Positions 3,948-21,777 of a stretch of DNA of 37,066 nucleotides are shown piece after piece (the stretch's first letter is position 1; each line of letters begins with the position of its first letter). The stretch is from Pseudacidovorax intermedius (GTDB lineage: Bacteria > Pseudomonadota > Gammaproteobacteria > Burkholderiales > Burkholderiaceae_C): assembly GCF_001476815.1 (NCBI RefSeq), contig NZ_LDSL01000079.1, forward strand, positions 1-37,066. The letters run 5' to 3'. The notes beneath the pieces are model-generated. The model was not told the origin of the DNA. It searched no databases and was given only the letters and a program-made list of their open reading frames with translations. The position numbers were made by a program, and so were the translations under genes.

Positions 3948-4029
3948 CGCCCGGCTGCCTGCCTTCCCGCATTCGCGTTCGTTGATGTGCGCGGCCATTA
4001 GACATGAACGGATCGGCGGCCTACACTGC

Positions 4030-4065
4030 ATGGCGGTTCGCCATAGTCGAATCGATTCCATTAAA
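4030..4065. promoter_or_regulatory. Candidate IclR operators and hmgA promoter
   Basis: Two perfect palindromes sit in the gap between the IclR gene and hmgA: ATGGCG-gtt-CGCCAT at 4030-4044 and GAATCGATTC at 4049-4058. A loose sigma-70 match, TTCGCC (4037-4042) and ATTAAA (4060-4065) with 17 bases between, overlaps both. This geometry fits control of hmgA by the divergent regulator. Palindromes are seen directly; binding is inferred. Confidence 0.5.
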
Positions 4066-4132
4066 ACTAACTGGAGCCAACCCGCGACCGCGTGCCTGTG
4101 CCCGCCGGCCGCCCGCCCCGCAAGGACCCGCC

Positions 4133-6432: not shown

Positions 6433-6458
6433 CACCCGCACCACCTTCTTCTTCTGCC

Positions 6459-7730
6459 ATGACCCTTCTCGACAAGACCCACAACCCCCACCTGCGCAGC
6501 TGGGTGGAATCCGCCAACGTGGCGGGCTGCGACTTCCCGATCCAGAACCTGCCCTTCGGCCGCTTCCGCCGTGCCGGCGGTAGCGACGCGGCCCTGCGCA
6601 TCGGCGTCGCCATCGGCGACCAGGTGCTGGACCTGCGCGCCGCCGGCCTGGTGGACCACGACGACATGAATGCGCTGATGGCCGCCGCGCCGGCCGAGCG
6701 CGCGGCGCTGCGCCAGCGCCTGTCCGACGGCCTGGCCCAGGGCAGCACGCAGCAGGCCGCCTGGGCCGCGGCGCTGGTGCCGCAGTCGGCCTGCGAACTC
6801 GCGGTGCCGTGCAAGGTGGGCGACTACACCGACTTCTACACGAGCGTGCACCACGCCACCAACATCGGCCGCCAGTTCCGCCCGGACAACCCGCTGCTGC
6901 CCAACTACAAGTGGGTGCCCATCGGCTACCACGGCCGCGCCAGCTCGATCATTCCGAGCGGCACCGCCTTCCGGCGCCCGCGCGGCCAGACCAAGGCGCC
7001 CGACGCCGCCGAACCCAGCTTCGGCCCCTGCAAGCGGCTGGACTACGAGCTGGAACTCGCCTGGTTCATCGGCCAGGGCAATGCGCTGGGCGAGCCGGTG
7101 GCCATCGACCAGGCCGAGGACCACCTGTTCGGCGTCGCCCTCTTCAACGACTGGTCGGCGCGCGACATCCAGGCCTGGGAATACCAGCCGCTGGGGCCCT
7201 TCCTGTCGAAGAACTTCGGCTCCACCGTCTCGCCCTGGATCGTGACCATGGAGGCGCTGGCGCCCTTCCGCGCACCCTTCACCCGGCCCGAGGGCGACCC
7301 GCAGCCGCTGCCCTACCTGGACGGCGCCGCCAACCGCGCGCACGGCCAGATCGACATGCAGCTGGAGGTGCTGATCCAGACCGCGAAGATGCGCGCCGAC
7401 GGCCAGGCGCCCACGCGCCTCTCCCTCGGCAAGCTCAAGGAGGCCGCCTACTGGACGCCCGCACAACTGGTGGCCCACCACACGGTCAACGGCTGCAACC
7501 TGCAGCCCGGCGACCTGATGGGCTCGGGCACGCTGTCGGGCCCTTCGCTGGACACCGCCGGCTCGCTGGCCGAAATGAGCGTGGGCGGCAAGCAGCCCAT
7601 CACCCTGCCCAACGGCGAGCAGCGCACCTTCCTGCAGGACGGCGACACGCTGATCCTGCGCGGCTGGTGCGAGCGCGAAGGCGCGGTGCGCATCGGGCTG
7701 GGCGAGGCGAGCGGGACCGTGCTGGCCTGA
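6459..7730 (+). CDS. fahA: Fumarylacetoacetase
   Basis: This cytosolic protein of 423 residues hydrolyses fumarylacetoacetate to fumarate and acetoacetate, the last step of homogentisate breakdown. Active-site segments match the animal enzyme: DYTDFYTSVHHATNIG (Asp125, His131), LDYELELAWF (two Glu metal ligands) and FNDWSARDIQ (Asp). A FAH N-terminal domain precedes the C-terminal beta-rich catalytic domain. It lies 26 bases after the Bug gene in the hmgA operon. The maleylacetoacetate isomerase needed between HmgA and this enzyme is not encoded in the window. A strong terminator follows. Confidence 0.97.
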   Translation: MTLLDKTHNPHLRSWVESANVAGCDFPIQNLPFGRFRRAGGSDAALRIGVAIGDQVLDLRAAGLVDHDDMNALMAAAPAERAALRQRLSDGLAQGSTQQAAWAAALVPQSACELAVPCKVGDYTDFYTSVHHATNIGRQFRPDNPLLPNYKWVPIGYHGRASSIIPSGTAFRRPRGQTKAPDAAEPSFGPCKRLDYELELAWFIGQGNALGEPVAIDQAEDHLFGVALFNDWSARDIQAWEYQPLGPFLSKNFGSTVSPWIVTMEALAPFRAPFTRPEGDPQPLPYLDGAANRAHGQIDMQLEVLIQTAKMRADGQAPTRLSLGKLKEAAYWTPAQLVAHHTVNGCNLQPGDLMGSGTLSGPSLDTAGSLAEMSVGGKQPITLPNGEQRTFLQDGDTLILRGWCEREGAVRIGLGEASGTVLA

Positions 7731-7768: not shown

Positions 7769-7817
7769 CCAAGAAGAAGGCCCTGCCCGCATTGCTGCGA
7801 CAGGGCCTTCTTCTTGG
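7769..7817. terminator. Bidirectional hairpin terminator between fahA and the convergent Bug gene
   Basis: A perfect 17-bp inverted repeat, CCAAGAAGAAGGCCCTG (7769-7785) and its complement (7801-7817), encloses a 15-base loop. The AAGAAGAA/TTCTTCTT outer stem supplies U-rich tails in both directions. It separates two convergent genes. Confidence 0.85.
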
Positions 7818-7845
7818 CTGTCGCCGTCCGCGCCCGGACCGGGTC

Positions 7846-8817
7846 TCAGTCCACCTTCGCGCCCGAATCCTTCACCAGCTTGCCCCAGCGCGGGATGTCG
7901 TCGCGGATCAGCTTGGCGAAGTCGGCGGCGCTGCTGCCCTGCACGTCGGCGCCCTGGCCGGACAGCTTCTGCTTGAGCGTGGGATCCTGCAGCGCCTTGT
8001 TGATGTCGGCGTTGAGCTTGGCCACGATGTCCTTGGACAGGCCGGCCGGGCCGAGGATGCCGAACCAGGTGATGGCTTCGAAGCCCTTGTAGCCGGACTC
8101 GGCCACGGTGGGCACCTGCGGCAGGTCCGCGGCGCGCTGCAGCGAGGTCAGCGCCAGCGGATGCATCTTGCCGGACTTGATGTGCGCCTGGAGCGTGGGC
8201 ACCGACGACACGTACAGCTGCACCTGGCCGCTGATGACGTCGGTGATTCCCTGGGCCGCGCCCTTGTACGGGATGTGCGTGAGCTTGACGCCCGCCGCCT
8301 TCTGGAAGGACTCCATGGCCAGGTGCGACACCGTGCCGTTGCCCGACGAGGCGTAGTTGATGCTGTCGGGCTTGGCGCGCGCCGCCTTCACCAGGTCGTC
8401 CAGCGTCTTGAAGGGCGTGGCGGTGCCGGCCACGATGACGAGCGGCGAGGTCGCGACCAGGCTGATCGGCGTCAGGTCCTTCAGCGGGTCGTAGGGCAGC
8501 TTGGTGTAGAGCGTCGGATTGATCGCCAGGTTGCTGGTCTGGCCCAGCACCAGGGTGTAGCCGTCGGGCGCGGCCTTGGCGGCGGCATCCACGCCCAGGT
8601 TGCCGCCGGAGCCCGGTTTGTTGTCCACCACGAAGTTGTAGCCGTAGCTGGTGAGCTTGTTGGTCAGTTCGCGGGCAATGATGTCGGTGCCGCCGCCGGC
8701 CGGAAAGGGCACGATCAGCCGGATGGGCCGGGACGGCCAGGTGTCGGCCTGGGCCGCGGTGGCGGCAAGGAGGGATGCGGCGGCGAACGCCAGCGCGGCG
8801 CGGCGGGATGTCTTCAC
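7846..8817 (-). CDS. Bug-type substrate-binding protein (copy 2), divergent from an IclR gene
   Basis: This periplasmic binding protein has 323 residues, with a signal peptide KTSRRAALAFAAASLLAATAAQA and a Bug domain (PFPAGGGTDIIAR; YASSGNGTVSHLAMESF). The start is the GTG at 8817, preceded by GGAG eight bases upstream; no ATG fits. It is transcribed away from the IclR gene at 8927. Its promoter (TTGTAT, 17 bases, TAGAGT) and upstream palindrome are nearly identical in layout to those of the amidohydrolase operon at 17700. It is therefore probably the uptake or sensing component for the same substrate. The ligand is unknown. Confidence 0.92.
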   Translation of the reverse strand: MKTSRRAALAFAAASLLAATAAQADTWPSRPIRLIVPFPAGGGTDIIARELTNKLTSYGYNFVVDNKPGSGGNLGVDAAAKAAPDGYTLVLGQTSNLAINPTLYTKLPYDPLKDLTPISLVATSPLVIVAGTATPFKTLDDLVKAARAKPDSINYASSGNGTVSHLAMESFQKAAGVKLTHIPYKGAAQGITDVISGQVQLYVSSVPTLQAHIKSGKMHPLALTSLQRAADLPQVPTVAESGYKGFEAITWFGILGPAGLSKDIVAKLNADINKALQDPTLKQKLSGQGADVQGSSAADFAKLIRDDIPRWGKLVKDSGAKVD

Positions 8818-8866
8818 GGGTTTGTCTCCGACTGTGTGTTGAACGCAGGAATCGCGTCCCGGCCGC

Positions 8867-8914
8867 ACTCTAGGTTCGAGTTTCAATGCATACAATGTCG
8901 TTTCGCTCAGCGAA
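8867..8914 (-). promoter_or_regulatory. IclR-type operator and sigma-70 promoter for the Bug gene at 8817
   Basis: Read on the minus strand: a palindrome TTCGCT-g-AGCGAA (8902-8914), -35 TTGTAT (8890-8895), a 17-base spacer and -10 TAGAGT (8867-8872). The palindrome centre lies about -48 from the expected start, a typical activator site. The palindrome is also 12 bases before the ATG of the divergent IclR gene and just after a TACAAT (8891-8896), a position suited to autorepression. The same plan recurs at 17745-17792. Confidence 0.7.
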
Positions 8915-8926
8915 CCGAGGTCCGAC

Positions 8927-9691
8927 ATGCGCAACGAATCCACCCCAACAGAAGCGACCGAAGCACGTGGTGATGGCGGCGTGATCGCCGTCACGCGCGC
9001 CCTGTCGCTGATGGAAGCCTTCGAGGTGGGCGAATCCGCCCTCACCCTGGCCGAGCTGAGCCGCCGCAGCGGCATGCACAAGACCACCGTGCTGCGGCTG
9101 GCGCGCACCCTGGCGCAGTCGCACTACATGGTGCAGACCGACGCCGGGCAATGGCGACTGGGGCCGGCAGCCGGCTGGCTGGGCGCGCGCTACCAGGCCG
9201 GCTTCGACGTCAACAACGTGGTCGAACCGGCGCTGCACGAGCTGGTCAAGCTCACGGGCGAAAGCGCGTCTTTCTACGTGCGCGAGGGCGACATCCGGGC
9301 CTGCGTGGCGCGGGTGGAAGGGCCGCAGTCGGTGCGGCACCACGTGCGCATCGGCGCACGGCTGCCGCTGGACCTGGGCGCGCCGGGCCGGGTGATCCTG
9401 GCCTTCAGCGGCGCACAGGGCGAGCCCTACGAGACCATCCGCACCTGCGGCTTCCACATGTCGCTCGGGGAGCGCGAGGCCGACGTGTCCAGCGTGGCCG
9501 CACCGGTGTTCCGCACCGGCTGGCACCTGCTGGGGTCGATGTGCATCTCGGGCCCCAGCTCGCGGCTCACGAAGGAGCGGCTGGAGAAGTACGCGCTCAG
9601 CGTGGTGGCGGCGGCCAACCAGCTGTCGTATGCGCTCGCGGGCGGGCGCTCGCCGGCCACGCCGCCCGTCGTGTCACGCTGGCATCCTTGA
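8927..9691 (+). CDS. IclR-family transcriptional regulator
   Basis: This cytosolic DNA-binding protein of 254 residues has an N-terminal helix-turn-helix, LTLAELSRRSGMHKTTVLRLA, at about residues 44-64. An IclR effector domain follows (VARVEGPQSVRHHVRIGARLPL and SSVAAPVFRTGWHLLGSMCIS). The ATG at 8927 follows CGAGG at 8916-8920. The gene is divergent from a Bug gene. The palindrome between them recurs before the operon at 17700, so this regulator is the best candidate to control both, and probably itself. It differs clearly in sequence from the IclR protein next to hmgA. The effector is unknown and is presumably a substrate or intermediate of the 9.8-17.7 kb pathway. Confidence 0.92.
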   Translation: MRNESTPTEATEARGDGGVIAVTRALSLMEAFEVGESALTLAELSRRSGMHKTTVLRLARTLAQSHYMVQTDAGQWRLGPAAGWLGARYQAGFDVNNVVEPALHELVKLTGESASFYVREGDIRACVARVEGPQSVRHHVRIGARLPLDLGAPGRVILAFSGAQGEPYETIRTCGFHMSLGEREADVSSVAAPVFRTGWHLLGSMCISGPSSRLTKERLEKYALSVVAAANQLSYALAGGRSPATPPVVSRWHP

Positions 9692-9692
9692 A

Positions 9693-9814
9693 GGCACCCC
9701 CCATGCCGCTTCGCGGCTCCCCCCTCCCTTGCGCCTTCGGCTTGGAGGGGGGCGCACCCCACGGCCTGGCAAAGCCAGTTCCGTGGGTGCCCTGGCATGG
9801 CCTGCTCCGCGGCC
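9693..9814. repeat. Repeat B copy 2 (inverted) between convergent genes
   Basis: This is the inverted form of the element at 1297-1414. It holds the same hairpin (9752-9791: outer stem GCACCCCACGG / CCGTGGGTGC, inner stem CTGGC-aaa-GCCAG) and the same G-rich and C-rich flanks. It lies between the convergent IclR and SMP-30 genes and may act as their shared terminator. Confidence 0.85.
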
Positions 9815-9838
9815 TTCCGTAACCTCTCGCGTCGGCGC

Positions 9839-10753
9839 TCAACGCCGCGCCAGCGGCAGGCCCGGCACGTCCATCTCGGCGGTCATCACGCGGCCATGGG
9901 TGGAATCGGTGACGAAGAGCGTGCGTCGCTGCGGACCGCCGAAGGCGAGGTTGGTGATGGAGGCGCCCGCGGGGCCGCGCAGCACCTGCACCGGCTCGGC
10001 CCTCGTGTTGAGCACCCACAGGTAGCCCAGGCCCGGGTTGGCCACCAGCACGCGGCCCTGCGCGTCCACGGCCAGGCCGTCGGGGCCGCTCGGGCCATAG
10101 GAGGTGAAGAACTGGCTCACCTTCGAGACGCTGCCGTCCACCAGCAGCGGCACGCGCCACACGCAGTTGCCGCGCGTCACGGCCAGGTACAGCACCTTCT
10201 CGTCGGGCGACAGCGCCACGCCGTTGGGGCTGGGGATGTTGCCCAGCAGCTGGTCCAGCCGGCCCTCGGGCGTGAGGCGGTAGAGCCGGCCGGTGGGGTC
10301 GTGCAGGCCGGTCTGGCCCTGGTCGGTGAAGTACAGGTTGCCGGCGCGGTCGAACACCAGGTCGTTCACGCCCTTGAAGCGCTCGCTGTTGCGCCGCGCC
10401 AGGAAGGGCGACACGCGGCCGCTGGCCACGTCCAGCTGCATCAGCCCGTTCTTGTAGTCGGTGATCAGCAGAGTGCCGGCGTCCAGGAACTTCATGCCGT
10501 TGGGCTCGCCGTCGTACTCGGCCACCAGCGACCAGCGGCCCTGCGGGTCGACGCGAAAGATGCGGCCCCAGGGAATGTCGGTGACGTAGAGATGGCCGTC
10601 GTCACCCACCACCGGGCCTTCGAGGAAGGAGTCGGTGGGCGTGCCGCCGCGGTTGGCGTCGGCCCAGTCGCTGCGGCGCGGGCGGCGGAACTCGTCGGGC
10701 ATGGCGCTGAACAGCGAGAGTTCGCGCACCTGAGGCGGTTGGAGAAGGAACAT
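9839..10753 (-). CDS. SMP-30/gluconolactonase/LRE family protein
   Basis: This protein of 304 residues has a six-bladed beta-propeller lactonase fold. Likely divalent metal ligands sit in FLEGPVV (Glu), GVNDLVFD (Asn), IPSPNGVALSPD (Asn) and GPDGLAVD (Asp). Relatives hydrolyse sugar-acid or other lactones. There is no obvious signal peptide, so it is probably cytosolic. It is the last gene of the leftward cluster, 13 bases after the amidohydrolase stop, and the two are surely co-transcribed. The ATG at 10753 is the first in frame after that stop. The substrate is not known. A lactone formed in the same pathway as the two LigI-like hydrolases is the simplest idea. Confidence 0.87.
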   Translation of the reverse strand: MFLLQPPQVRELSLFSAMPDEFRRPRRSDWADANRGGTPTDSFLEGPVVGDDGHLYVTDIPWGRIFRVDPQGRWSLVAEYDGEPNGMKFLDAGTLLITDYKNGLMQLDVASGRVSPFLARRNSERFKGVNDLVFDRAGNLYFTDQGQTGLHDPTGRLYRLTPEGRLDQLLGNIPSPNGVALSPDEKVLYLAVTRGNCVWRVPLLVDGSVSKVSQFFTSYGPSGPDGLAVDAQGRVLVANPGLGYLWVLNTRAEPVQVLRGPAGASITNLAFGGPQRRTLFVTDSTHGRVMTAEMDVPGLPLARR

Positions 10754-10766
10754 GGTTCTCGTTCTT

Positions 10767-11669
10767 TCAGGTGAAAGGCAGGGGGCCGAAGTCGTAGAGC
10801 TTCGCCGGGTTGTGGACCACGATGCGCGCAATGCGCGCCGCATCGCCCTCGCACCATCGGCCGAGCAGGTCGACCAAGGCGGCATCGTCCACGCTGCCCG
10901 GCGTCTCGGTGGTGTGAGGCCAGTCGCTGCCCCAGACCAGGCGCTCGGGCGCGCGGCGCACCAGCGCCTGGCCGGCGGCCACGGTGTCGTCGTAGCCGGG
11001 GCCACCGACGGCCGAGCGCATGTAGGCACCCGAGAGCTTGACCCAGGTGTTGCCGCCATCGAGCAGGCGGCATAGCAGGTCGAAGGCTTCGCCGTTCGCG
11101 CCCTGCGCCGGGTCGAGCCGCGCCATGTGGTCCACCACCAGCGCCACCGACAGCCCGCGCAGCAGCCCGGCCATGGCCAGCAGCTGCTCCGGATGCACGA
11201 AGACCTGGATGTGCCAGCCCAGCGGCGCGACCTTGGCCGCCAGCGTGGCGAGCATGTCGGGCGTGGTCGTGCCCCAGGACTGCGGCGTCACGAAGTTGAC
11301 GCGCAGACCCCGCACACCCAGGCCATGCAGCCGCTGCAGCTCGGCCGCGTCCACGCCCGCCTCGACCACCGCCACGCCGCGCGCGGCCTCGCCCATCTGC
11401 GCCAGCGCGTCGAGCGTGCAGGCGTTGTCGGTGCCGTAGGTGGAGGGCGTGACGACCACGGCGCGCTGCGTGCCGATGCGCGCCTGCAGCTGCCGGTAGG
11501 CGGCCACCGGCGCATCGGGCGGCTGCCGCTTCCAGTGCGTCGACGGCGGGAAGCGCGGGTCGAAGATGTGCATGTGGCTGTCGCAGGCCCCGGCAGGCAA
11601 TGCGACGCCCGGCCGCGCAACGCCGGCCGAATGGGGCACCGAATGCAGCAGTGGCAGCGGGGCGACCAT
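10767..11669 (-). CDS. LigI-like amidohydrolase family protein (copy 2)
   Basis: This metal-dependent TIM-barrel hydrolase of about 300 residues carries the N-terminal metal motif CDSHMHIFDPRFP, then VVTPSTYGTDN, VVDHMARLD, and the C-terminal WGSDWPHT with the catalytic or metal Asp. These match 2-pyrone-4,6-dicarboxylate lactonase (LigI) and related lactone hydrolases and isomerases (COG3618). A paralogue with the same motifs opens the operon at 17700. The start is uncertain. ATG 11669 is used because the frame above it runs into repeat B; ATG 11729 would add 20 residues. A 191-base gap with the repeat separates it from the upstream Bug gene, so it may have its own promoter. The substrate is unknown. 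Confidence 0.85.
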   Translation of the reverse strand: MVAPLPLLHSVPHSAGVARPGVALPAGACDSHMHIFDPRFPPSTHWKRQPPDAPVAAYRQLQARIGTQRAVVVTPSTYGTDNACTLDALAQMGEAARGVAVVEAGVDAAELQRLHGLGVRGLRVNFVTPQSWGTTTPDMLATLAAKVAPLGWHIQVFVHPEQLLAMAGLLRGLSVALVVDHMARLDPAQGANGEAFDLLCRLLDGGNTWVKLSGAYMRSAVGGPGYDDTVAAGQALVRRAPERLVWGSDWPHTTETPGSVDDAALVDLLGRWCEGDAARIARIVVHNPAKLYDFGPLPFT

Positions 11670-11737
11670 GTCAGTGGTCCACCGCGCCGACGCGACACCC
11701 GCATGGCAGGAAACCGGCGCCACACTCATGATCGAAT

Positions 11738-11853
11738 GGCCGCGGAGCAGGCCACGCCAGTGCACCCGCGGAACGGGCTTGGCCCGGCCGCCGGGTGCGC
11801 CCCTTGAGGGGGATGGGACTTCCACACGCAGTGAGGAAGTCCAAACGGGGTGG
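11738..11853. repeat. Repeat B copy 3 (diverged)
   Basis: This copy keeps GGCCGCGGAGCAGGCC and the hairpin, but several stem bases have changed in pairs: inner stem CGGGC-ttg-GCCCG instead of CTGGC-ttt-GCCAG, and outer stem CCCGCGG instead of CCCACGG with its partner changed too. It lies directly downstream of the Bug stop at 11861 and upstream of the amidohydrolase start. Confidence 0.75.
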
Positions 11854-11860
11854 TCTCATT

Positions 11861-12838
11861 TCAATCCAGCTTGATATCGCCCTTGCGCACCACCTCGCCC
11901 CACTTGGCGTCTTCCTTCTTCAGGAAGTCGGCGAAGGCGGTGGGCGTGGAGCCGATGGGCTGCGCGCCCAGGTCCTTCATGCGCTGCAGCACCTCCTCGT
12001 CCTTCAGCACCTCGGCCAAGGCCTTCTGCAGCTTGTCGGCGATGTCCTTGGGCGTCTTGGCGGGCAGCAGCATGCCGTTCCATTCATAGGCCTCGTAACC
12101 CGGCACCACGGTCTCGGCCACGGTGGGCACGTCGGGCAGGCGCGGCGAGCGCTGGGGCGAGGTCGCGGCCAGGGCGCGCAGCTTGCCGGACGACACCAGC
12201 GGATAGCTGGCCGCCACGGTGGCGAACATGAAGTCCACCTGGCCCGCCATCGTGTCGGTGATGGCCGGGCCGCCGCTCTTGTAGGGCACATGCACCATGT
12301 CCAGCCCCAGCTTCTGGCGGAACAGCTCGGCCGCCAGGCGCTGCACCGTGCCGGCGCCGCCCGAGGCGAAGTTGATCTTGTGGGGCTGGGCCTTGGCCGC
12401 GGCCACCAGGTCCGCCACCGTCTTGTACGGCGAATCGGCCTTGGTGATCAGCATGTTGGGCATGGTCAGCACCAGCGACAGCGGCTGCAGCGCATCGGCC
12501 GCATAGGGCAGGCGCGGGAACAGGTGCGGGTTGATGGCGTAGGGCGTGGCGTCGTAGAGCACGGTGTAGCCATCGGGCGCGGCCTTGGCCGCATAGGCGG
12601 CGCCGATGGTGCCGCTGGCGCCGGCGCGGTTGTCCACGATCACGCTGGTGCCCAGTTTCGGGCCCAGCTTGGCCGCGATCACACGCGCCATGGCATCGGC
12701 CGCGCCGCCGGGGGCGTAGGGCACGACGATGGTGATCGGGCGCTCGGGATAGGCCGCGTGGGCGGCGAAGGCCGCCGTCGCCAGGCTGGCGACGAGCAGG
12801 CGACGGATCAACGAGAACTTGGAAGAGGCCACACGCAT
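11861..12838 (-). CDS. Bug-type substrate-binding protein (copy 3)
   Basis: This periplasmic binding protein of 325 residues has a signal peptide ending AAFAAHA and Bug signatures PYAPGGAADAMAR and FASGGAGTVQRLAAELF. The ATG at 12838 has CCGGAG five bases upstream. It follows another Bug gene (start 13967) in the same direction with a 142-base gap. That gap holds two hairpins without U-tracts (GGCGGCC-tgcac-GGCCGCC at 12906-12924, then a GGGTC/GACCC stem). Two adjacent, non-identical binding proteins suggest two related ligands rather than a recent duplication. No transport membrane subunits are nearby. Confidence 0.92.
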   Translation of the reverse strand: MRVASSKFSLIRRLLVASLATAAFAAHAAYPERPITIVVPYAPGGAADAMARVIAAKLGPKLGTSVIVDNRAGASGTIGAAYAAKAAPDGYTVLYDATPYAINPHLFPRLPYAADALQPLSLVLTMPNMLITKADSPYKTVADLVAAAKAQPHKINFASGGAGTVQRLAAELFRQKLGLDMVHVPYKSGGPAITDTMAGQVDFMFATVAASYPLVSSGKLRALAATSPQRSPRLPDVPTVAETVVPGYEAYEWNGMLLPAKTPKDIADKLQKALAEVLKDEEVLQRMKDLGAQPIGSTPTAFADFLKKEDAKWGEVVRKGDIKLD

Positions 12839-12905
12839 ATCTCCGGAGTCATGGGTTGGAAGGAAAAAGAGGGGCAGCACGGACGGCTGCCTTCATCGAA
12901 GCAGG

Positions 12906-12940
12906 GGCGGCCTGCACGGCCGCCGGGTCGGTGACCCCGG
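12906..12940. other. Tandem hairpins between two Bug genes
   Basis: GGCGGCC-tgcac-GGCCGCC (12906-12924) is followed by a GGGTC-ggt-GACCC stem (about 12925-12937). There is no T-tract on either strand. These could stabilise or partly terminate the transcript between the Bug genes at 13967 and 12838. Confidence 0.5.
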
Positions 12941-12980
12941 CGCTGTCGCCTCGGTCGCGCCGACGCCGGGGCCCGCGGGC

Positions 12981-13967
12981 TCACTCGGGCTTGAGGTCGA
13001 GTTCGCGCGCGAGCTGGCCGTAGGCCTTGACCTCGCGCGCCAGTTGTTCGCCGAAGTCGGCGCCGCACACATGCTGGCTTTCCATGCCCAGGCCGCGCAG
13101 CTTCTCCTGCGTGGCGCCCTGGCGCACGAAGTCCTGCGCGGTCTTCTGCAGCAGCGCCAGCACCGCGGGCGGCGTGCCGGCCGGCGCCAGCAGGCCGTAC
13201 CAGGCGTCGGCCCGGTAGCCCTTGACGCCCGCCTCGTCGAAGGTGGGCACCTGCGGCAGCAGGGGCGAGCGCTGCGGCGCGGCCACGGCCAGCGCCGTGA
13301 GCTTGCCGGCCTGGACCTGCGGCAGCACCGAGCCGAGGGTGGCGAAGGAGCTGTCCACCTGGCCGCCCACGAGGTCGGTGACGGCCTGCGCCGCGCCCTT
13401 GTAGGGGATGTGGTTCATGCGCGTGCCAGTCAGCCGCGTGAACTGCTCGCTGGCAAAGTGGCCCGAGCTGCCGGCGCCCGGGGTGGCATAGGTGCGCTGG
13501 CCCGGCGCGGCCTTCACCTGCTGCAGGAAGGTGGCCAGGTCGGGCACCTTCATCGACGGGCCCACCACCAGCACCGTGGGGCTCACCGCCAGGCTGCACA
13601 CCGGCGCGAAGGAGCGCACGGCGTCGAACTTGACGCGGCTGCTGTAGAGCGCCGGGATCATGGTGTGGTTGGTGGCGCCCAGCAGCAGCGTGTAGCCATC
13701 GGCCGGGGCGCCGGCCACGGCTTCGGCCGCGAGGATGGTGTTGGCGCCCGGCTTGTTGTCCACCAGGAAGGGCTGGCCCAGCGTGCGCGCGGCGTAGTCC
13801 GCGAAGCCGCGGGCCACCACGTCGGTGGGGCCGCCGGCCGAGAAGCCAACCACCAGGCGCACGGGCTTGGCGGGATAGGCGGGCGCCTGGGCATGGGCGG
13901 TGGGTACCAGGCCGGCGAGGCCCAGCAGGGCGGCGGCGAAGAGGCCGCGCGGAAGGCGATGGGTCAT
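12981..13967 (-). CDS. Bug-type substrate-binding protein (copy 4)
   Basis: This protein of 328 residues has a signal peptide LFAAALLGLAGLVPTAHA with a cut before QAPAYPAKP. Its Bug signatures are GFSAGGPTDVVARG and YATPGAGSSGHFASEQF. The ATG at 13967 has AAGGAG nine bases upstream. It lies downstream of the dehydrogenase gene with a 124-base gap containing a CCCCTC/GAGGGG hairpin at 14025-14042. Two cysteines (VCSLA and VCGADF) are unusual for an exported binding protein of this family and could form a disulfide. The ligand is unknown. Confidence 0.92.
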   Translation of the reverse strand: MTHRLPRGLFAAALLGLAGLVPTAHAQAPAYPAKPVRLVVGFSAGGPTDVVARGFADYAARTLGQPFLVDNKPGANTILAAEAVAGAPADGYTLLLGATNHTMIPALYSSRVKFDAVRSFAPVCSLAVSPTVLVVGPSMKVPDLATFLQQVKAAPGQRTYATPGAGSSGHFASEQFTRLTGTRMNHIPYKGAAQAVTDLVGGQVDSSFATLGSVLPQVQAGKLTALAVAAPQRSPLLPQVPTFDEAGVKGYRADAWYGLLAPAGTPPAVLALLQKTAQDFVRQGATQEKLRGLGMESQHVCGADFGEQLAREVKAYGQLARELDLKPE

Positions 13968-14024
13968 GGTCGTTGTCTCCTTCTTGATGGATCGGTCTGT
14001 CATTGCGGACGTCTGACTCCCTGT

Positions 14025-14042
14025 CCCCTCGCGGGAGAGGGG
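14025..14042. other. Hairpin CCCCTC-gcggga-GAGGGG in an intergenic gap
   Basis: A six-base perfect stem lies between the dehydrogenase stop (14092) and the Bug start (13967). No U-tract follows on the minus strand. It may be a processing or partial termination site that sets different levels for enzyme and binding-protein parts of the transcript. Confidence 0.4.
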
Positions 14043-14091
14043 CTCGCCGCCGCCGCGCCCTCGGGCAGCTCGGCAGCGTGGCAAGTCCGGC

Positions 14092-15006
14092 TCAGCCGCG
14101 CGCGAGCACGGCCAGCAGGTTCTTCGCTGCCGCCACACCCATGTTGATGTAGGCGTCGCTGGTCACGCCGCCGATGTGCGGGCTCAGCACGATGCGCTCC
14201 TGGCCCTGGAAGGGGTGGTCGGCCGTCATCGGCTCGACCGCGAAGCTGTCCAGGCCCGCACCGGCCACCTGGTCCGAGCGCACGGCGGCCAGCAGCGCCG
14301 CCTCGTCGATCAGGCCGCCGCGCGCGGTGTTGACGACGATCACGCCGCGCTTGCACTGCGCCAGCGTCTCGGCGTTGAGCATGCCGCGGTTCTCGTCGGT
14401 CAAGGGGCAGTGCAGCGAGATCACGTCGGCCTCGCGCCAGATCGTGGCAAGGTCCGCGCTCTGGATGTAGTCGGGCAGGTTTTTGGCGAAGGGGTCGAAT
14501 CCGATCACCCGCATGTCCATCGCATGCGCCATGCGCGCGAAGCGCTGGCCGATGGCGCCCAGGCCCACGACGCCGACGGTGCGGCCGCCCAGTTCCAGGC
14601 TCTTGTGCGTGGCCTTGTCCCAGTGGCCGGCGTGCATGCGCGCATCGAGCGGCACCACCGACTTGGCGCAGGCCAGCATCAGGGCCAGGGCCTGCTCGGC
14701 CACGGCCGCGGCGTTGGCGCCCACGGCGGCCACCACCTCGATGCCGCGTGCCTTGGCCGCCACCTTGTCGATGGTGTCGGTGCCGCTGCCGTGCTTGGAG
14801 ATGACCTTGAGCGAGGGTGCCGCGTCCATCACCGCCACGCCGACCTTGCCGTAGCGCACGATGATGGCCACCGGGTCGTGGCGCCGGCACAGCGCGATGA
14901 GGTCGTCCTCGGTCGGCGCCTTGCCGGCGTAGACCACTTCCATGTTGTTCAGCAGGGCCAGGGCCTGCGGTGCGAGGTCCGCACCCGTGACAAGGACGGT
15001 GCTCAC
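14092..15006 (-). CDS. D-2-hydroxyacid dehydrogenase (SerA-like)
   Basis: This NAD-dependent D-isomer-specific 2-hydroxyacid dehydrogenase of 304 residues has a dinucleotide motif GVVGLGAIGQRFARM near residue 146. The catalytic triad is visible as Arg (VNTARGGLID), Glu (DSFAVEP) and His (LSPHIGG). It would interconvert a D-2-hydroxyacid and a 2-oxoacid in the cytosol. It lacks the ACT domains of long SerA enzymes, so a catabolic role is more likely than serine synthesis. The start is the GTG at 15006, which overlaps the stop of the RraA-like gene as GTGA and has AGGA six bases upstream. It is translationally coupled to the aldolase gene, so the two probably act on consecutive intermediates. 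Confidence 0.9.
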   Translation of the reverse strand: MSTVLVTGADLAPQALALLNNMEVVYAGKAPTEDDLIALCRRHDPVAIIVRYGKVGVAVMDAAPSLKVISKHGSGTDTIDKVAAKARGIEVVAAVGANAAAVAEQALALMLACAKSVVPLDARMHAGHWDKATHKSLELGGRTVGVVGLGAIGQRFARMAHAMDMRVIGFDPFAKNLPDYIQSADLATIWREADVISLHCPLTDENRGMLNAETLAQCKRGVIVVNTARGGLIDEAALLAAVRSDQVAGAGLDSFAVEPMTADHPFQGQERIVLSPHIGGVTSDAYINMGVAAAKNLLAVLARG

Positions 15007-15689
15007 AGTTCCTCGCCTTCCTTCAGCACGCCGGCCGCACGCAGGGCGGCGGGCAGCCACTTGGAAGCGGTGTCGCCGCGCGAAATGGCATCCAGGCGCG
15101 CGGCCTCGTCGGCCACCTTCTTGTCGGCCAGGGCCAGCATGGCGGGCGCCTTCTCGCGCTCGATCACCACCACGCCGTCGGCATCGCCCACCACCAGGTC
15201 ACCGGGGTTGACGCTGGCGCCGCCGGCCGAGATGGGGTGGTTGATGCGGCCGGGCACGAACTTGGTGGGGCCGGCCGGGTTGAAGCCGGCGCTGAAGACC
15301 GGGAAGTCCAACTCCAGCAGCTCCAGCTTGTCGCGGATGGCGCCGTCGACGATCACGCCGGCCAGGCCGCGCTTCTTGCAGGCGCTGAGCATCAGCGTGC
15401 CCATCAGGGCGGCCGTCTGGTCGCCCTTGCCGTCGATCACCAGCACATCGCCCGGCTGGGCCAGCGCGATGGCGGCGTGGATCATCAGGTTGTCGCCGGG
15501 GCGTACTTCGACGGTGAAGGCCGGGCCGGCCACGGCCATGCTGTGGTGCACGGGCGCGACGCGCGCGCTCATGGTGCCGCGGCGGCCGGCCACGTCGGCC
15601 AGGATGGCCGCCTGGAAAGTCGCGGCCTTGGCGACCACTTCGGGGGAGACGCGCTCGATGTCGCGGACGATGTCAGGGAGTTGGCTCAT
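15003..15689 (-). CDS. RraA-like 4-hydroxy-4-methyl-2-oxoglutarate / 4-carboxy-4-hydroxy-2-oxoadipate aldolase family protein
   Basis: This protein of 228 residues has the class II aldolase signature of the RraA/HMG-CHA family: GDVLVIDGKGDQTAALMG and RGLAGVIVDGAIRDK, with the substrate-binding Arg-Asp pair. Catabolic members split a 4-hydroxy-2-oxo acid to pyruvate plus oxaloacetate or a second pyruvate. The RNase E inhibitor RraA shares the fold. The catabolic setting and the coupled dehydrogenase favour an aldolase. It lies 47 bases after the Bug stop at 15737. A GTGA overlap links it to the dehydrogenase. The exact substrate cannot be read from sequence. Confidence 0.85.
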   Translation of the reverse strand: MSQLPDIVRDIERVSPEVVAKAATFQAAILADVAGRRGTMSARVAPVHHSMAVAGPAFTVEVRPGDNLMIHAAIALAQPGDVLVIDGKGDQTAALMGTLMLSACKKRGLAGVIVDGAIRDKLELLELDFPVFSAGFNPAGPTKFVPGRINHPISAGGASVNPGDLVVGDADGVVVIEREKAPAMLALADKKVADEAARLDAISRGDTASKWLPAALRAAGVLKEGEEL

Positions 15690-15736
15690 GGCGTTGGCTC
15701 GGTTCGGAAGAGATGAAGAAGGAAGGAGAAGAGGGA

Positions 15737-16723
15737 TCAGTCGGCCTTGATGCCGCCCTTGCGGATGACCTCGGCCCACTTGGCGGAGTCGGACTTCTGC
15801 AGCGCGCCCAGCTGCGCGGGCGTGCCACCCACCAGCGTGATGCCAAGCTTGTCGGCCAGGGCGACCACATCGGTCGTCTTGAGGGCGGCGTTGATGTCGC
15901 GGTTGAGGCGATCCACGATGGACGCCGGCGTGCCGGCCGGCGCGAAGACGGCCTGCCACTGCTCGACGACGAAGTCCTTGATGCCGGCCTCGACCATGGT
16001 GGGAACGTCGGGCAGGGCCTTGAGGCGCGCGGCCGAGGTGACGGCCAGAGCACGCAGCCGGCCCGACTGCACATGGGGCAGCGCGGCGGCAGCGGGCGCG
16101 AACATGAAGTTCACCTGCTCGCCCAGCGTGTCCTGCAGCGCGGGGGTGTCGCCCTTGTAGGGAACGTGGATGAAGCGCGTGCCGGTCTGCTGCGCCATCA
16201 GCTCGCCCTGCATCTGCAGGATGGTGCCGGTGCCGCCCGAGGCGAAGGCCAGCTTGCCGGGCTGCGCCTTGGCCGCGGCCAGCAGCTCGGCCACGCTGCG
16301 GTAGGGCTGGTTCGCGCCCACCACCAGGATGTGCGGAATGGTGCCGATGGTGATCACCGGCGCGAAGCCGCCGATGGGGTCGTAGGGCAGCTTGCCCATC
16401 AGGTGCGGCGCGATGGCCTGCGGGCCGATGGAGGTGCCCAGCAGCGTGTAGCCGTCGGGCGCCGACTTGGCGACATAGGCCGCGCCGATGGTGCCGGTGG
16501 CGCCGGCGCGGTTGTCCACGATCACGTTGGTGCCCAGCGTGCCGCCGAGCTTCTGCGCCACGGCCCGGCCGAGCACGTCGGTGCTGCCGCCCGGCGGATA
16601 GGGCACCACCCAGGTGATGACGCGGCCGGTGGGCCAGTCGCCCTGGGCCAGGGCACCGCCGGTGGCCAGCAGGGCGGCAGCACCGGCGATGAGAGAGCGG
16701 CGGGTGAGGAAGGTCGGGTTCAT
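15737..16723 (-). CDS. Bug-type substrate-binding protein (copy 5)
   Basis: This protein of 328 residues has a twin-arginine-like signal peptide (TRRSLIAGAAALLATGGALA) and Bug signatures PYPPGGSTDVLGR and FASGGTGTILQMQGELM. The ATG at 16723 overlaps the stop of the preceding amidohydrolase as ATGA and has AAGGAG about 11 bases upstream. It is the second gene of the operon that starts at 17700. That position, and coupling to a lactone-hydrolase-like enzyme, make it the most likely dedicated binding protein for the pathway's entry substrate. Confidence 0.93.
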   Translation of the reverse strand: MNPTFLTRRSLIAGAAALLATGGALAQGDWPTGRVITWVVPYPPGGSTDVLGRAVAQKLGGTLGTNVIVDNRAGATGTIGAAYVAKSAPDGYTLLGTSIGPQAIAPHLMGKLPYDPIGGFAPVITIGTIPHILVVGANQPYRSVAELLAAAKAQPGKLAFASGGTGTILQMQGELMAQQTGTRFIHVPYKGDTPALQDTLGEQVNFMFAPAAAALPHVQSGRLRALAVTSAARLKALPDVPTMVEAGIKDFVVEQWQAVFAPAGTPASIVDRLNRDINAALKTTDVVALADKLGITLVGGTPAQLGALQKSDSAKWAEVIRKGGIKAD

Positions 16724-17700
16724 GTGTCTTGGTCTCCTTGGGATTCGATGGAAGGGCCGAAGTCGTACAGCGCGGCCGGGTTGTGGACCAGCACCTGGGC
16801 GAGGCGCTCGCCGCCGCCGGTCCACTGCGCCAGCCGGTCGAGCTGGCGGGCGTCGTCGGGCATCGGCTGCAGGCCGGCCGACGCGGTGGCATGGGGCCAG
16901 TCGCTGCCCCAGACGACGCGTTCGGGCGCGGCGTCGAGGAAGCTGCGGGCCAGGTCGTCCAGCGCCGGGTCGTCGGTGCTGTGCGTGGGGCTGACGAGGT
17001 AGCCGCCGGACAGCTTGATCCACGCACGCCCGCTGCGCAGCAGCGCCAGCACCACGGCATGGGCAGGATGGCGGCCGGCGTCGGCCGGCGACAGCCGCGC
17101 GAAATGGTCGAAGACCAGCGGCACGGGCAGGTCCGACAGCCGCGCGGCCTGGGCCGCCAGCAGGTCGGCCGGCATCAGCAGCTGCAGGTGCCAGCCCAGC
17201 GGCGCGACGCGGCGCGCGAGGGGCACCAGCATGTCGGCATGCAGGCCCACGCCCAGCGACAGGTTGAGCCGCACGCCGCGTACGCCCTGGGCGTGGAGTT
17301 GCGCGAGGTGCGCGTCGGATTCGCTGCCGTCGATGACGGCGACGCCCCGCGCCTGCGCGCCCAGAGCGCGCAGAGCGCGCAGCGCCGCGAGCATGGGGCG
17401 GTTGTCCGCACCGTAGGTGGAAGGCGTGACCAGCACGGCGCGCTGCAGGCCGGTGCGGCGCTGCAGCCGGCGGTAGTCGTCGACGCTGGCGTCGGGCGGC
17501 AGCAGGCGGGCGCCGGGCACGGCCGGGAAGCGGCTGTCGTAGACGTGCACGTGGCAGTCGCAGGCGCCGGCGGGCACCGCGACGGCGGGCGGCTGCGTGC
17601 CCCTGCTGAACGGAACGGATGACGCCTGCGCACCCATCGCCTCGGCTCCACCCGCGAGGGGCGGCCGTCCGGTAGGCAGCGTGGGCAAGGTCGAGGGCAT
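16720..17700 (-). CDS. LigI-like amidohydrolase family protein (copy 1)
   Basis: This protein of 326 residues has the motifs [33 protein letters not shown] and WGSDWPHA. They define the same metal-dependent family as the 2-pyrone-4,6-dicarboxylate lactonase LigI and match the second copy at 10767-11669 segment by segment. The ATG at 17700 has GGAG eight bases upstream; ATG 17637 is a possible shorter start. It is the first gene after the promoter with TAGAGT at 17745-17750, so it is probably the regulated lead gene of the leftward operon. It overlaps the Bug gene by four bases. It is likely a cytosolic lactone hydrolase. The substrate is unknown. Confidence 0.88.
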
Positions 17701-17744
17701 CCGGTCGTCTCCGAAGGCGGCGTCTTCGCGCCGCGATGGGCCGG

Positions 17745-17792
17745 ACTCTAGAAGCGCGTTGCGCTATTCACAATGCCGGTTCGTTCAACGAA
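17745..17792 (-). promoter_or_regulatory. IclR-type operator and sigma-70 promoter for the amidohydrolase operon
   Basis: Read on the minus strand: a perfect palindrome TTCGTT-g-AACGAA (17780-17792), -35 TTGTGA (17768-17773), a 17-base spacer and -10 TAGAGT (17745-17750). Offsets between palindrome, -35 and -10 are identical to those at 8867-8914, and the flanking GGCCGnACTCTAG is shared. The predicted transcript starts near 17738, giving a leader of about 38 bases. Confidence 0.72.
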
Positions 17793-18017
17793 ACACGTTG
17801 TGGTGGGTGAAACGCCGCCTTCGCGGTGCGCCCGTCGTGCGTCCGGCATGTCCCACAGGCACGCAGGCGCTGCGCCGTCGCCCGGCTGGTCCTTGCACCG
17901 AGCGCGAGCCCCCTGGGGCGCCCTTCACAGTGGCCCCACTGCCGCCGCATGCCCTGTCACGCCCCTCTTTCTCTTTCACCCAGGCGGCCCATCCCCACGA
18001 ACCCCACGGAGCAGCCC
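17793..18017. other. Leader region of the rightward molybdenum hydroxylase operon, no gene seen
   Basis: Together with 17701-17792 this is the only stretch of more than 300 bases without a gene. It lies between divergent start sites. I see no convincing coding frame with a ribosome site, no strong hairpin and no clear sigma-70 pair for the rightward genes. The IclR palindrome at 17780-17792 could serve both directions. Upstream in-frame ATGs (for example near 17949) lack ribosome sites. Confidence 0.5.
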
Positions 18018-18611
18018 ATGGCCCCCAGCCCGAAATCCCCGCCGCTGCGCGACCGCGCGCCGGAATCGCCCGCCGGCGGCAGCGCCGCCACCGCCGCCCT
18101 GCACGGCACGGTGCACCTGACGGTCAACGGCGAGGCGCGCAGCCTCACCGTCGACAACCGCACCACCCTGCTCGATGCGTTGCGCGAACACCTGCACCTG
18201 TGCGGCACCAAGAAAGGCTGCGACCACGGCCAGTGCGGCGCCTGCACGGCGCTGGTCGACGGCCGGCGCATCAACACCTGCCTGAGCCTCGCCGTGATGC
18301 ACGAGGGCAGCGAGGTCACCACCATCGAAGGCCTGGGCACGCCCGAGGCCATGCACCCCATGCAGGAGGCCTTCGTGCGCCACGACGGCTTCCAATGCGG
18401 CTACTGCACGCCGGGCCAGATCTGCTCGGCCGTGGGCGCCCTGCGCGAACTGCGCGACGGCGTGCCGAGCCACGCCAGTGCCGACCTGCAGGCGCAGCCC
18501 CTGCTGTCGCCCGACGAGATGCGCGAGCGCATGAGCGGCAACATCTGCCGCTGCGGCGCCTACAGCAACATCCAGCAGGCCATCGCCGAGGCCGCGGAGG
18601 CCACCCGATGA
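18018..18611 (+). CDS. 2Fe-2S subunit of a PaoABC-like molybdenum aldehyde dehydrogenase
   Basis: This protein of 197 residues has two [2Fe-2S] sites. The plant-type N-terminal set is [21 protein letters not shown] and the C-terminal set is CGYCTPGQ...CRCGAY. It passes electrons from the molybdenum site to FAD. The ATG at 18018 follows GGAG at 18008-18011. E. coli PaoA carries a Tat signal; here the N-terminus ([20 protein letters not shown]) has no twin-arginine or hydrophobic stretch, so the complex is probably cytosolic. The stop overlaps the next start as ATGA. Confidence 0.93.
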
Positions 18612-19567
18612 AAGCCTTCAGCTACGAACGCGCCGCCACGCCCGAGGCCGCCGTGGCCGCCCTGGCCCGCACGCCGGACGCCCGCTTCATCGCCGGCGGC
18701 ACCAACCTGCTGGACCTGATGAAGCTGCAGGTGGAAACGCCCACGCACCTCGTCGACATCAACGGCCTGGGCCTGGACCGCATCGAGCCGACCGAGGACG
18801 GCGGCCTGCGCATCGGCGCGCTGGTGCGCAACACCGACCTGGCGGCCGACGCCCGCGTGCGGCGCGACTACGGCGTGCTGTCGCGCGCGCTGCTGGCCGG
18901 TGCCTCGGGCCAGCTGCGCAACAAGGCGACCACGGCCGGCAACCTGCTGCAGCGCACCCGCTGCCCCTACTTCTACGACACCGCCCTGCCCTGCAACAAG
19001 CGCGAGCCCGGCACCGGCTGCGGCGCGCTGCAGGGCTACAGCCGCCAGCTGGCGGTGGTGGGCGGCAGCGACCAGTGCATCGCCACCCATCCCGGCGACA
19101 TGTCGGTCGCGCTGCGCGTGCTGGACGCCACCGTGGAGACGGTGCAGGCCGGCGGTGGCCGGCGCACCATTCCCATCGCCGACTTCCACCGCCTGCCGGG
19201 CAACACGCCGGAGCGCGACACCGTGCTGGCGCCCGCCGAGCTCATCACGGCCGTGACGCTGCCGGCCCCCGTGGGCGGCACGCACGTGTACCGCAAGGTG
19301 CGCGACCGCGCCTCCTATGCCTTCGCACTGGTGTCGGTGGCCGCCATCGTGCAGCCCGACGGCACCGGCCGCGTCGCCCTGGGCGGCGTGGCGCCCAGGC
19401 CCTGGCGCATGGAAGCGGCCGAGGCCGAACTGCCGAACGGCCCGCAGGCCGTCGCCCAACGCCTGTTCGCCGACGCCCATCCGCGCCCCGACAACGCCTT
19501 CAAGCTGCCCCTCGCGCAGCGCACCCTGGCGGCCGCCCTGGCCGACGCGAAGGAGATGCAGCCGTGA
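18608..19567 (+). CDS. FAD (and probable 4Fe-4S) subunit of a PaoABC-like aldehyde dehydrogenase
   Basis: This protein of 319 residues has a FAD-binding N-terminal domain ([14 protein letters not shown]) and a C-terminal CO dehydrogenase-flavoprotein-type domain. The Cys-rich insert [22 protein letters not shown] resembles the insert that holds a [4Fe-4S] cluster in E. coli PaoB, a trait that separates this group from ordinary xanthine dehydrogenases. The ATG at 18608 overlaps the preceding stop, and its own stop overlaps the GTG of the large subunit, so all three subunits are translationally coupled. Confidence 0.92.
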
Positions 19568-21777
19568 AATTCGATCCCTCCACCACCGCCGTTCCGGGCG
19601 AGCAGCTGCGCCACGTGGGCCAGCCCACGCACCGCGTGGACGGTCCGCGCAAGACCACCGGCACCGCGCCCTACGCCGGTGAATGGCATCCCGACTTCGA
19701 CGCCCACGTGCGTGACGCGGCCTACGGCTGGGTACTGGGCGCCGGCATCGCCAAGGGCCGCATCGCCGGCATGGACCTGGACGCGGCGCGCGCGGCGCCG
19801 GGCGTGCTGGCGGTCGTCACCGCCGAGGATGCCGGTGCGCTCGACAAGTCCGAGCGCAACACCGCCAGGCTGCTCGGCGGCCCCGCCATCGACCATTACC
19901 ACCAGGCCATCGCCGTGGTCGTCGCCGAGACGCTGGAACAGGCCCGCGCCGCTGCCGCGCTGGTCCGCGTTCGCTACGAGACGGCGCCCGGCCGCTTCGA
20001 TCTGGCCGCGGAGAAGGACAGTGCCGAGCTGGCCGGCGACGACGCCAAGACGGAGGTCGGCGACTTCGACAGCGCCTTCGCCTCTGCGCCGGTGCAGCTC
20101 GACGCCACCTACACCACGCCCGACGAATCGCACGCCATGATGGAGCCGCACGCCACGCTGGCCGCATGGCAGGGCGACCGGCTCACGGTGTGGACCTCGA
20201 CGCAGATGGTCGACTGGTGCCGCACCGACCTGGCCGCCACGCTGAAGATGGACAAGGCCAAGGTGCAGGTGCGCTCGCCTTTCATCGGCGGCGGCTTCGG
20301 CGGCAAGCTCTTCCTGCGCGCCGACGCGCTGCTGGCGGCGCTGGCGGCGCGCGCGGCCGGGCGCCCGGTGCGCGTGGGGCTGCACCGCCCCCTGATCGCC
20401 AACAACACCACCCACCGCCCCGCCACCATCCAGCGCATCCGGCTGGGCGCGGGCAAGGACGGGCGCCTCACGGCCATCGCGCACGAGAGCTGGTCCGGCG
20501 ACCAGAAGGACGGGCAGCCGGAAACCGCCGTCAACCAGACCAGGCTGATCTACGCCGGTGCCCACCGCCGCACCGCCATGTACCTGGCCGAGATGGACCT
20601 GCCCGAAGGCAACTCCATGCGCGCCCCTGGCGAAGCGCCCGGCATGGCAGCGCTGGAAGTCGCCATGGACGAACTGGCCGAGCTTCTGGGGATGGACCCG
20701 GTCGAACTGCGCCTGCGCAACGACACCGACGTGGACCCGGAACATCCCGAGCGCCGCTTCACCCAGCGCCGCCTGGCGAACTGCCTGCGCGACGGCGCCC
20801 AGCGCTTTGGCTGGGACCAGCGCCCGGCCAAGCCCGGCCTGAAGCGCGAAGGCCGCTGGGCCATCGGCATGGGCATGGCCGCCGCCTTCCGCAACCACAT
20901 GCTGATGAAGTCCGCGGCCCGCGTGCGCCTCTCGCCCGACGGTGGCGTCACGGTCGAGACCGACATGACCGACATCGGCACCGGCAGCTACACCATCCTG
21001 GCCCAGACCGCAGCAGACCTGGTGGGTGTGCCGCTGGACCGCGTGGAGGTGAAGCTGGGCGATTCGGACTGGCCCGTCTCCGCCGGCTCCGGCGGCCAGT
21101 TCGGCGCCGCCAATGCCACGGGCGGGGTGTATGCCGCCTGCGTGAAGCTGCGCGACACCATCGCCCGCAAGCTGGGCCTGGACGCCGACGGTGCCGAGTT
21201 CGTGGACGGCCAGGTCCGCAGCGGCGGGCGCAGCGTGGCGCTCACCGAGGCGGTCGAGGACGGCCAGCCGCTGATGGCCGAGGACGGCATCGAGTACGAC
21301 GAATCGCTGTCCAAACAGTGGCAGCACTCCACCTTCGGCGCCCACTTCGTCGAAGTGGCGGTCCACGTGGACACGGCCGAGATCCGCGTGCGGCGCATGC
21401 TGGCCGTGTGCGCGGCCGGCCGCATCCTGAACCCGGTCACGGCCCGCAGCCAGGTGATCGGCGCCATGACCATGGGCGTGGGCGCCGCGCTGATGGAAGA
21501 GCTGGCCGTGGACACGCGCCTGGGCCTCTTCGTCAACCACGACCTCGCGGGCTACGAGGTGCCGGTGCATGCCGACATCCCCGACCAGGAGGTGGTGTTC
21601 CTCGACGAGCCGGACGGCATGGCCTCGCCCCTGGCCGCCAAGGGCATCGCCGAACTGGGCCTGTGCGGCGCGGCGGCGGCGGTCGCCAATGCCGTCTACA
21701 ACGCCACCGGGGTGCGGGTGCGGGACTATCCGGTCACGCTGAACAAGCTGATCGCGCAGTGGCCGGCGGCGGCGTGA
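19564..21777 (+). CDS. Molybdopterin-binding catalytic subunit of a PaoABC-like aldehyde dehydrogenase
   Basis: This protein of 737 residues is close in length to E. coli PaoC. Motifs for the molybdenum-cytosine-dinucleotide site include [30 protein letters not shown] and the catalytic glutamate segment [12 protein letters not shown]. It should oxidise an aldehyde, possibly aromatic, to the acid. The start is the GTG at 19564 (GTGA overlap with the FAD subunit); the open frame continues far upstream but the family N-terminus begins here. The maturation factor PaoD/XdhC is not in the window. The gene ends 63 bases before the convergent fic gene. A small hairpin CAGCGC-ca-GCGCTG at 21797-21810 lies between them. 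Confidence 0.93.

Follow-up and report, generated by a model that had tools for sequence, protein, structure and literature searches.

A tandem three-box operator probably links an IclR-type regulator to an uptake gene and a catabolic operon in Pseudacidovorax intermedius

Two operator elements of one plan

In the 37,066-nucleotide stretch of Pseudacidovorax intermedius DNA analysed here (contig NZ_LDSL01000079.1, positions 1 to 37,066, called the window), two minus-strand elements of the same plan stand before the gene of a TctC-type substrate-binding protein (Bug1) and before a catabolic operon. Judging from comparative sequence analysis, this uptake protein and the breakdown pathway are probably switched together by a neighbouring IclR-type regulator, and we consider it quite probable that the product of its gene (iclR, 8927-9691, plus strand, 254 amino acids) controls both promoters via a tandem operator of three boxes. 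The protein would bind three 17-bp boxes of the IclR group 1 type in either promoter, probably with at least two dimers lined up along the same face of the helix. At site 1, located in the Bug1/iclR intergenic region over the iclR start, the regulator would limit its own synthesis and control Bug1. At site 2, the operator would control a detached operon encoding an amidohydrolase, a Bug protein, an RraA-like aldolase, a 2-hydroxyacid dehydrogenase, two further Bug proteins, a second amidohydrolase and a lactonase. A substrate-derived effector is expected to switch both promoters together.

Re-extracted from the window, site 1 (minus strand, 8914-8867) reads TTCGCTGAGCGAA-ACGACA-TTGTAT-N17-TAGAGT and site 2 (minus strand, 17792-17745) reads TTCGTTGAACGAA-CCGGCA-TTGTGA-N17-TAGAGT. 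Both palindromes are perfect and differ in their arm letters, and the plan palindrome-N6-TTGT..-N17-TAGAGT is common to both sites with identical spacings. Hence, the original prediction, which was made from the letters of the window and described a matching architecture at 8867-8914 and 17745-17792, was right in this respect. Its statement that most bases between the elements differ holds only in part, because 33 of 48 positions are identical in the two 48-mers and the spacers share a half-site at equal phase (GAAAC at site 1, GCAAC at site 2). Regarding the flank said to be shared, TAnAGT is indeed conserved, but the profile shows weak conservation past it. The 60-base flanks on the two sides of the element agree at 22/60 and 17/60 positions, i.e. 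there is no likeness beyond the element. A recent simple duplication of one site is therefore unsupported, in line with the prediction; an old copying event may still lie behind the pair.

As a check, a genome-wide search for the architecture had been named. In the genome of the window (5.55 Mb in 295 contigs), the full architecture occurred with up to three mismatches at sites 1 and 2 only, and the control gave no match. The bare palindrome TTCGNTNANCGAA was less rare, with six places, four of them further to the two sites, in comparison to one for the reversed control. Among 100 genomes, the full architecture was matched in 12 (the own, 10 others of the genus and one of another genus), and the control gave one match overall. 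A shorter core with one mismatch, searched in 16 genomes, had one additional match in the own genome (C260:272).

Co-occurrence with the regulator gene

The protein encoded at 8927 was sought in 299 genomes of the family, 67 of which had a match at 1e-40. A 14-position core of the element precedes all 38 best iclR orthologues (61-100% by tblastn), in 35 cases without and in three cases with one mismatch, and in each of these 38 regions none of 100 dinucleotide shuffles was as good as the real core. The core was found before none of the 32 lower-identity homologues fetched (38-54%; 32 of 63 lower rows), the best of them having three mismatches (L105, 1/100 shuffles as good). Within the genus, 11 of 15 genomes contain an orthologue (87-100%), and all 11 have exactly two exact copies of the core with TAnAGT; none occurs in the four genomes without orthologue. 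At three mismatches the genus gives four extra matches in comparison to six in the reversed control, and we regard them therefore as noise. Across the 299 family genomes, the exact pattern occurs at 33 places, in 29 genomes (reversed control 0); 29 of these places lie before 8927 orthologues and the other four are, by their coordinates, detached copies of the genus. Furthermore, the recognition helix reads H(K/N)TT in 76/76 readable orthologues and HKPT in six paralogues of 52-54% without the site. Both the conservation in orthologous regions, which had been named as decisive, and the co-occurrence with 8927 orthologues thus support the proposed IclR-type operator and the small regulon of two promoters.

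The neighbourhood was compared in 40 named loci from Pseudacidovorax, Xenophilus, Variovorax, Ramlibacter, Caenimonas, Hylemonella, Polaromonas, Pseudorhodoferax and unclassified assemblies. The element stands beside iclR in 39 of them (29 exact, 10 with one mismatch), and the remaining locus, L159, is a 47% homologue without site. The iclR of L158 (Polaromonas sp. P2-4) gives two separate alignments, which looks like an interruption of the gene by a frame change, and the adjoining element is intact. By eye, another inverted repeat of the same class, e.g. GTTCTATCTTACAGAAC, was seen upstream of approximately 39-43% IclR homologues (L091, L099-L103), as if the operator spelling were particular to each IclR subgroup.

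This distribution bears on two other explanations. The palindromes could have arisen by chance or by recent copying of one promoter, and the four other places of the bare palindrome might be cited in favour; however, the in-phase conservation across genera, the specificity for the orthologue and the unlike flanks, an old copying event aside, leave this a negligible probability, and for a chance palindrome the conservation found is a refutation. It is also very improbable that another IclR protein binds the operator instead of the 8927 product. A second IclR gene exists 5 kb away on the hmgA side (3087-4061), but the element tracks the 8927 orthologues and always adjoins them, and among the 40 named loci only 7 showed the hmgA-side IclR (20-kb loci, E 1e-15).

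Three boxes in tandem

The consensus of IclR group 1 operators is given as GKTYCRYW3-4RYGRAMC in a passage of Suvorova and Gelfand (2021; PMC8222616). Scanning the 37-kb window with the 17-bp form GKTYCRYW3RYGRAMC gave 16/17 matches at just two places, which are the two palindromes (boxes B), and at most 14 elsewhere; box B of both sites is hence a group 1 palindrome. It is the middle of three in-phase boxes (A-19-B-20-C), the centre of box A being 19 bp upstream and that of box C 20 bp downstream of box B in the direction of Bug1 or the operon. According to their conserved phase, boxes A and C thus fall within the 18-22 nt that separate tandem sites. All boxes are given on the minus strand. 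At site 1, box A (GTTGCGCATGTCGGACC, 8919-8935) matches 14/17, keeps its phase across genera and covers the iclR start codon; box B (GGTTCGCTGAGCGAAAC, 8900-8916) holds the palindrome 8902-8914; and box C (ATTGTATGCATTGAAAC, 8880-8896), with 11/17 not above background alone, is conserved in phase and in its right half, overlaps the -35 and the spacer, and ends in TACAAT on the plus strand. At site 2, box A (GTTTCACCCACCACAAC, 17797-17813; 12/17) keeps its phase in the detached elements, box B (GTTTCGTTGAACGAACC, 17778-17794) holds the palindrome 17780-17792, and box C (ATTGTGAATAGCGCAAC, 17758-17774; 12/17) is conserved in phase, neither outer box being above background alone. By score, site 1 box A alone stands out among the outer boxes.

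Conservation was counted in two locus collections sharing genomes, from which copies were merged if they had identical 126-nt contexts (71 iclR-adjacent and 16 detached elements, used below for a single base) or at most 20 differing positions (65 iclR-adjacent elements, used for the boxes). With up to one mismatch, the left and right halves of box A were found in 59 and 52 of the 65 iclR-adjacent and in 15 and 12 of the 16 detached elements, and the left half of box B in 59 and 16, respectively. For the right half of box B, and likewise for that of box C, the counts were 65/65 and 16/16; they are not independent, because the search pattern included the right half of box B as well as box C. It included neither box A nor the left half of box B. 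Since the element precedes all 38 orthologues examined, only few exceptions can be hidden by this selection. According to the part of PMC8222616 on tandem sites, spacings of 18-22 nt occur in 94 orthologous groups and are linked to tetramer binding, and the regulator studied here may likewise bind as a tetramer.

Loci with a detached operon

In 21 loci the operon, recognized by the genes for RraA and the 2-hydroxyacid dehydrogenase (the latter except in the short L151), lies behind the iclR-side operator, with Bug1 between operator and operon in all of them but L134. Judged from this gene order, one operator serves the Bug gene and the operon jointly in most relatives. In 16 loci, as in the window, Bug1 and the operon are separated by iclR, and a second exact element was present at the operon head in 15 of the 15 split loci that could be followed to that head (13 within the named loci; for two others the head was reached in L057 and L060, longer loci from the same contigs). 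L125 and L126 come from near-identical strains. L130, the last of the 16, stops at a contig end, and G012, the genome it belongs to, carries another exact element on a different contig. An operator at the head of the operon where it is detached supports the predicted link of binding protein and pathway. Moreover, L145, one of the 21 loci, contains a separate Bug-Bug-amidohydrolase module with its own element (one mismatch; L145:1402, plus strand), and this detached operator falls outside the split clade. Mapped on the iclR tree, the split loci require two changes (0/500 shuffles as low), with L136 inside the split clade; they are essentially one clade and represent one or few events rather than 15.

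Several observations weigh against joint control by the iclR product. The 15 operon-head operators share descent. Of the 38 genomes with an orthologue, 29 have the exact element with TAnAGT and 9 lack it. Site 2 box A and both boxes C are inconspicuous by score and rest on their conserved phase. A sigma-70 consensus scan of 7800-9900 returned no promoter (shuffles mean 0.1). Finally, L136 and L141 keep the element though neither Bug1 nor the operon is near, perhaps as a rewired or decaying regulon. Downstream of element and iclR in these two loci (L136:9933, L141:9945) lie genes for proteins of the metallo-beta-lactamase fold and for glucose/sorbosone dehydrogenase-like proteins, and L141 has AACAGC at the -10 position.

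Promoter elements and the sign of control

Because there is no sigma-70 consensus match, the assignment of -35 and -10 rests on conservation and spacing. On the minus strand, the putative -35 of site 1 is TTGTAT (8890-8895), conserved 17 bp from TAnAGT, and the putative -10 is the conserved TAGAGT (8867-8872); the corresponding candidates at site 2 are TTGTGA (17768-17773) and TAGAGT (17745-17750), likewise proposed from conservation. Across genera the -35 stays TTGTA or TTGTG, which is poor, and its ATTGT is at the same time the left half of box C. With a start about 7 bases past TAGAGT, the box centres would be near -67, -48 and -28. The argument of the original prediction, that a palindrome near -48 occupies an activator position, fails as it was made: box C, centred near -28, covers the -35 and the spacer, so position cannot separate activation from repression. 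Its remark that the location near the iclR start suits autorepression fared better, since the iclR ATG follows the palindrome centre at 19 bp and is itself covered by box A, an arrangement that suits autoregulation.

IclR proteins can act as repressors, activators or both (PMC8222616, in part). We lean slightly to effector-dependent activation of Bug1 and the operon combined with autorepression of iclR, for which we see about an even chance. Somewhat below this we place a plain repressor acting at the same operators, in which occupancy of box C blocks the -35 at both promoters until the effector releases it. Such blocking would agree with the position of box C over -35 and spacer at both promoters, and the relevant passages on PheR, also of the IclR family, describe repression from a site between +23 and -21 that needs GCAACG (PMC13273656), a sequence also present in site 2 box C plus the next base. 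However, the poor -35 kept across genera is more usual for promoters that are helped, and the overlap does not decide the matter, since PcaR acts from the -35 and -10 for activation and repression, according to a title cited in PMC8222616.

The base following ATTGT differs with the context. Of 71 distinct elements adjacent to iclR, 69 have A there, and all 16 detached elements have G (ATTGTGA). The two exceptions with G, L133 and the Pseudorhodoferax locus L136 (same genome as L107), belong to the split clade, hence descent may explain part of the pattern; moreover, 15 of the 16 detached copies probably have one origin, and L145, the sole independent one, has G. On the plus strand ATTGTA reads TACAAT, a fair -10 from whose position iclR transcription would begin at the palindrome, and no -35 fitting this proposed iclR promoter was seen by eye. 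It is conceivable, though rather doubtful, that this single base sets the job of the operator: ATTGTA/TACAAT would be the target -35 and the iclR -10 in one shared hexamer, the face-to-face promoters would exclude each other, and box C would be the switch. Equally tentatively, the ATTGTGA of the detached operators would reflect that they have no iclR to drive.

Comparison with known systems

The kind of operator is already known, since tandem IclR operators are treated in the passages of PMC8222616, and the system described here is ordinary in kind. It resembles the group 1 tandems of that paper in box B (16/17), in the distances of 19 and 20 bp between centres, in a site 19 bp before the regulator start and in regulated operons adjoining the regulator gene. 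In contrast to them, three boxes stand in a row here and box C is merged with the -35 (ATTGT). As in control of the PcaU/PobR type (via PMC8222616), the IclR gene and a catabolic target are transcribed divergently and share one operator, and an additional box lies past the single palindrome; there, however, the extra element is an external direct repeat of the half-site, and the 8927 product is outside the PcaR/PcaU/PobR subfamily model TIGR02431 (103.4, cut-off 284.75). It is also below the BhcR model NF045644 (106.5, cut-off 350).

TphR of Comamonas (terephthalate), called an activator in a passage of PMC11683335, is likewise an IclR protein with a Bug-type partner, and the core of site 2 box C (TTGTGAATAGCGCAA) agrees by eye at 13/15 positions with its motif TTGCGCATAGCGCAA (Table 1 of PMC8222616), a likeness by motif alone and confined to some site 2 copies. 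PheR of Sphingobium shows IclR-family control of uptake and catabolism, with the GCAACG essential there being present at site 2; unlike here, the passages of PMC13273656 describe a repressor with a single protected region of 44 bp over the start site. PobR of Agrobacterium uses one intergenic site both to repress its own gene and to activate (PMC12285266, in part), but is no member of the IclR family, because it is annotated there as AraC-type. Literature searches, with candidates judged by titles and abstract starts, found no paper on this locus, and the available passages of PMC6449761 do not treat this IclR group.

Genes of the locus and the likely pathway

The iclR product belongs to the IclR family according to Pfam (HTH_IclR 42.2 bits, cut-off 22; IclR_C 80.1 bits, cut-off 24). 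A frameshift in its gene had been suspected since NCBIfam matches mostly end near residue 162, and was dropped because the frame contains no stop before its end and is spanned by the alignments with orthologues. Bug1 (7846-8817, minus strand; Pfam TctC) starts with GTG after GGAGACAAACCC, and its orthologues are divergent from iclR.

The operon genes, all on the minus strand and assigned by Pfam, begin with an Amidohydro_2 protein (16720-17700; ATG after GGAGACGACCGG), followed by a TctC/Bug protein (15737-16720, start approximate), an RraA-like aldolase (15003-15670, start approximate), a D-2-hydroxyacid dehydrogenase (14092-15060, longest frame; also by solved structures), two further TctC/Bug proteins (12981-13950, start approximate; 11861-12880, longest frame), a second Amidohydro_2 protein (10767-11650, start approximate) and an SMP-30/gluconolactonase-like protein (9839-10650, start approximate; Pfam SGL and beta-propeller lactonase structures). 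For both amidohydrolases the first solved-structure matches are LigI-type 2-pyrone-4,6-dicarboxylate hydrolases, and they miss the sole NCBIfam model listed, NF042924 for 4-sulfomuconolactone hydrolase (167.6 and 133.2, cut-off 500). The first solved-structure match of the RraA-like protein is 4-carboxy-4-hydroxy-2-oxoadipate aldolase (3noj). Because LigI-like proteins, aldolase, lactonase, dehydrogenase and four Bug proteins, Bug1 included, occur together, the genes likely serve to take up and cleave a carboxylated lactone or hydroxy acid, derived from either aromatic compounds or sugar acids.

An exact candidate operator is now defined for an IclR orthologous group that has no name and occurs in many genera of a single family, and the regulator is tied to a lactonase/aldolase/2-hydroxyacid dehydrogenase pathway. 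The split loci offer a natural test of co-regulation, with the operon away from the Bug promoter and an operator copy at its new head, and the substrate could be sought via a compound switching both promoters.

Genes of the [2Fe-2S] and molybdopterin-binding hydroxylase type (17826-21777, plus strand) diverge from site 2. They were considered as regulon members and rejected; of nine other loci of the genus reaching past the operon head (L056-L064), four contain them (L057, L059, L060, L061), thus they are outside the conserved unit and probably outside the regulon. On the other side of Bug1, a homogentisate cluster (3087-7730) comprises hmgA (4004-5458) and a fumarylacetoacetase gene (6459-7730), both above NCBIfam cut-offs, with a Bug-like frame between them and the separate hmgA-side IclR gene on the minus strand, divergent from hmgA.

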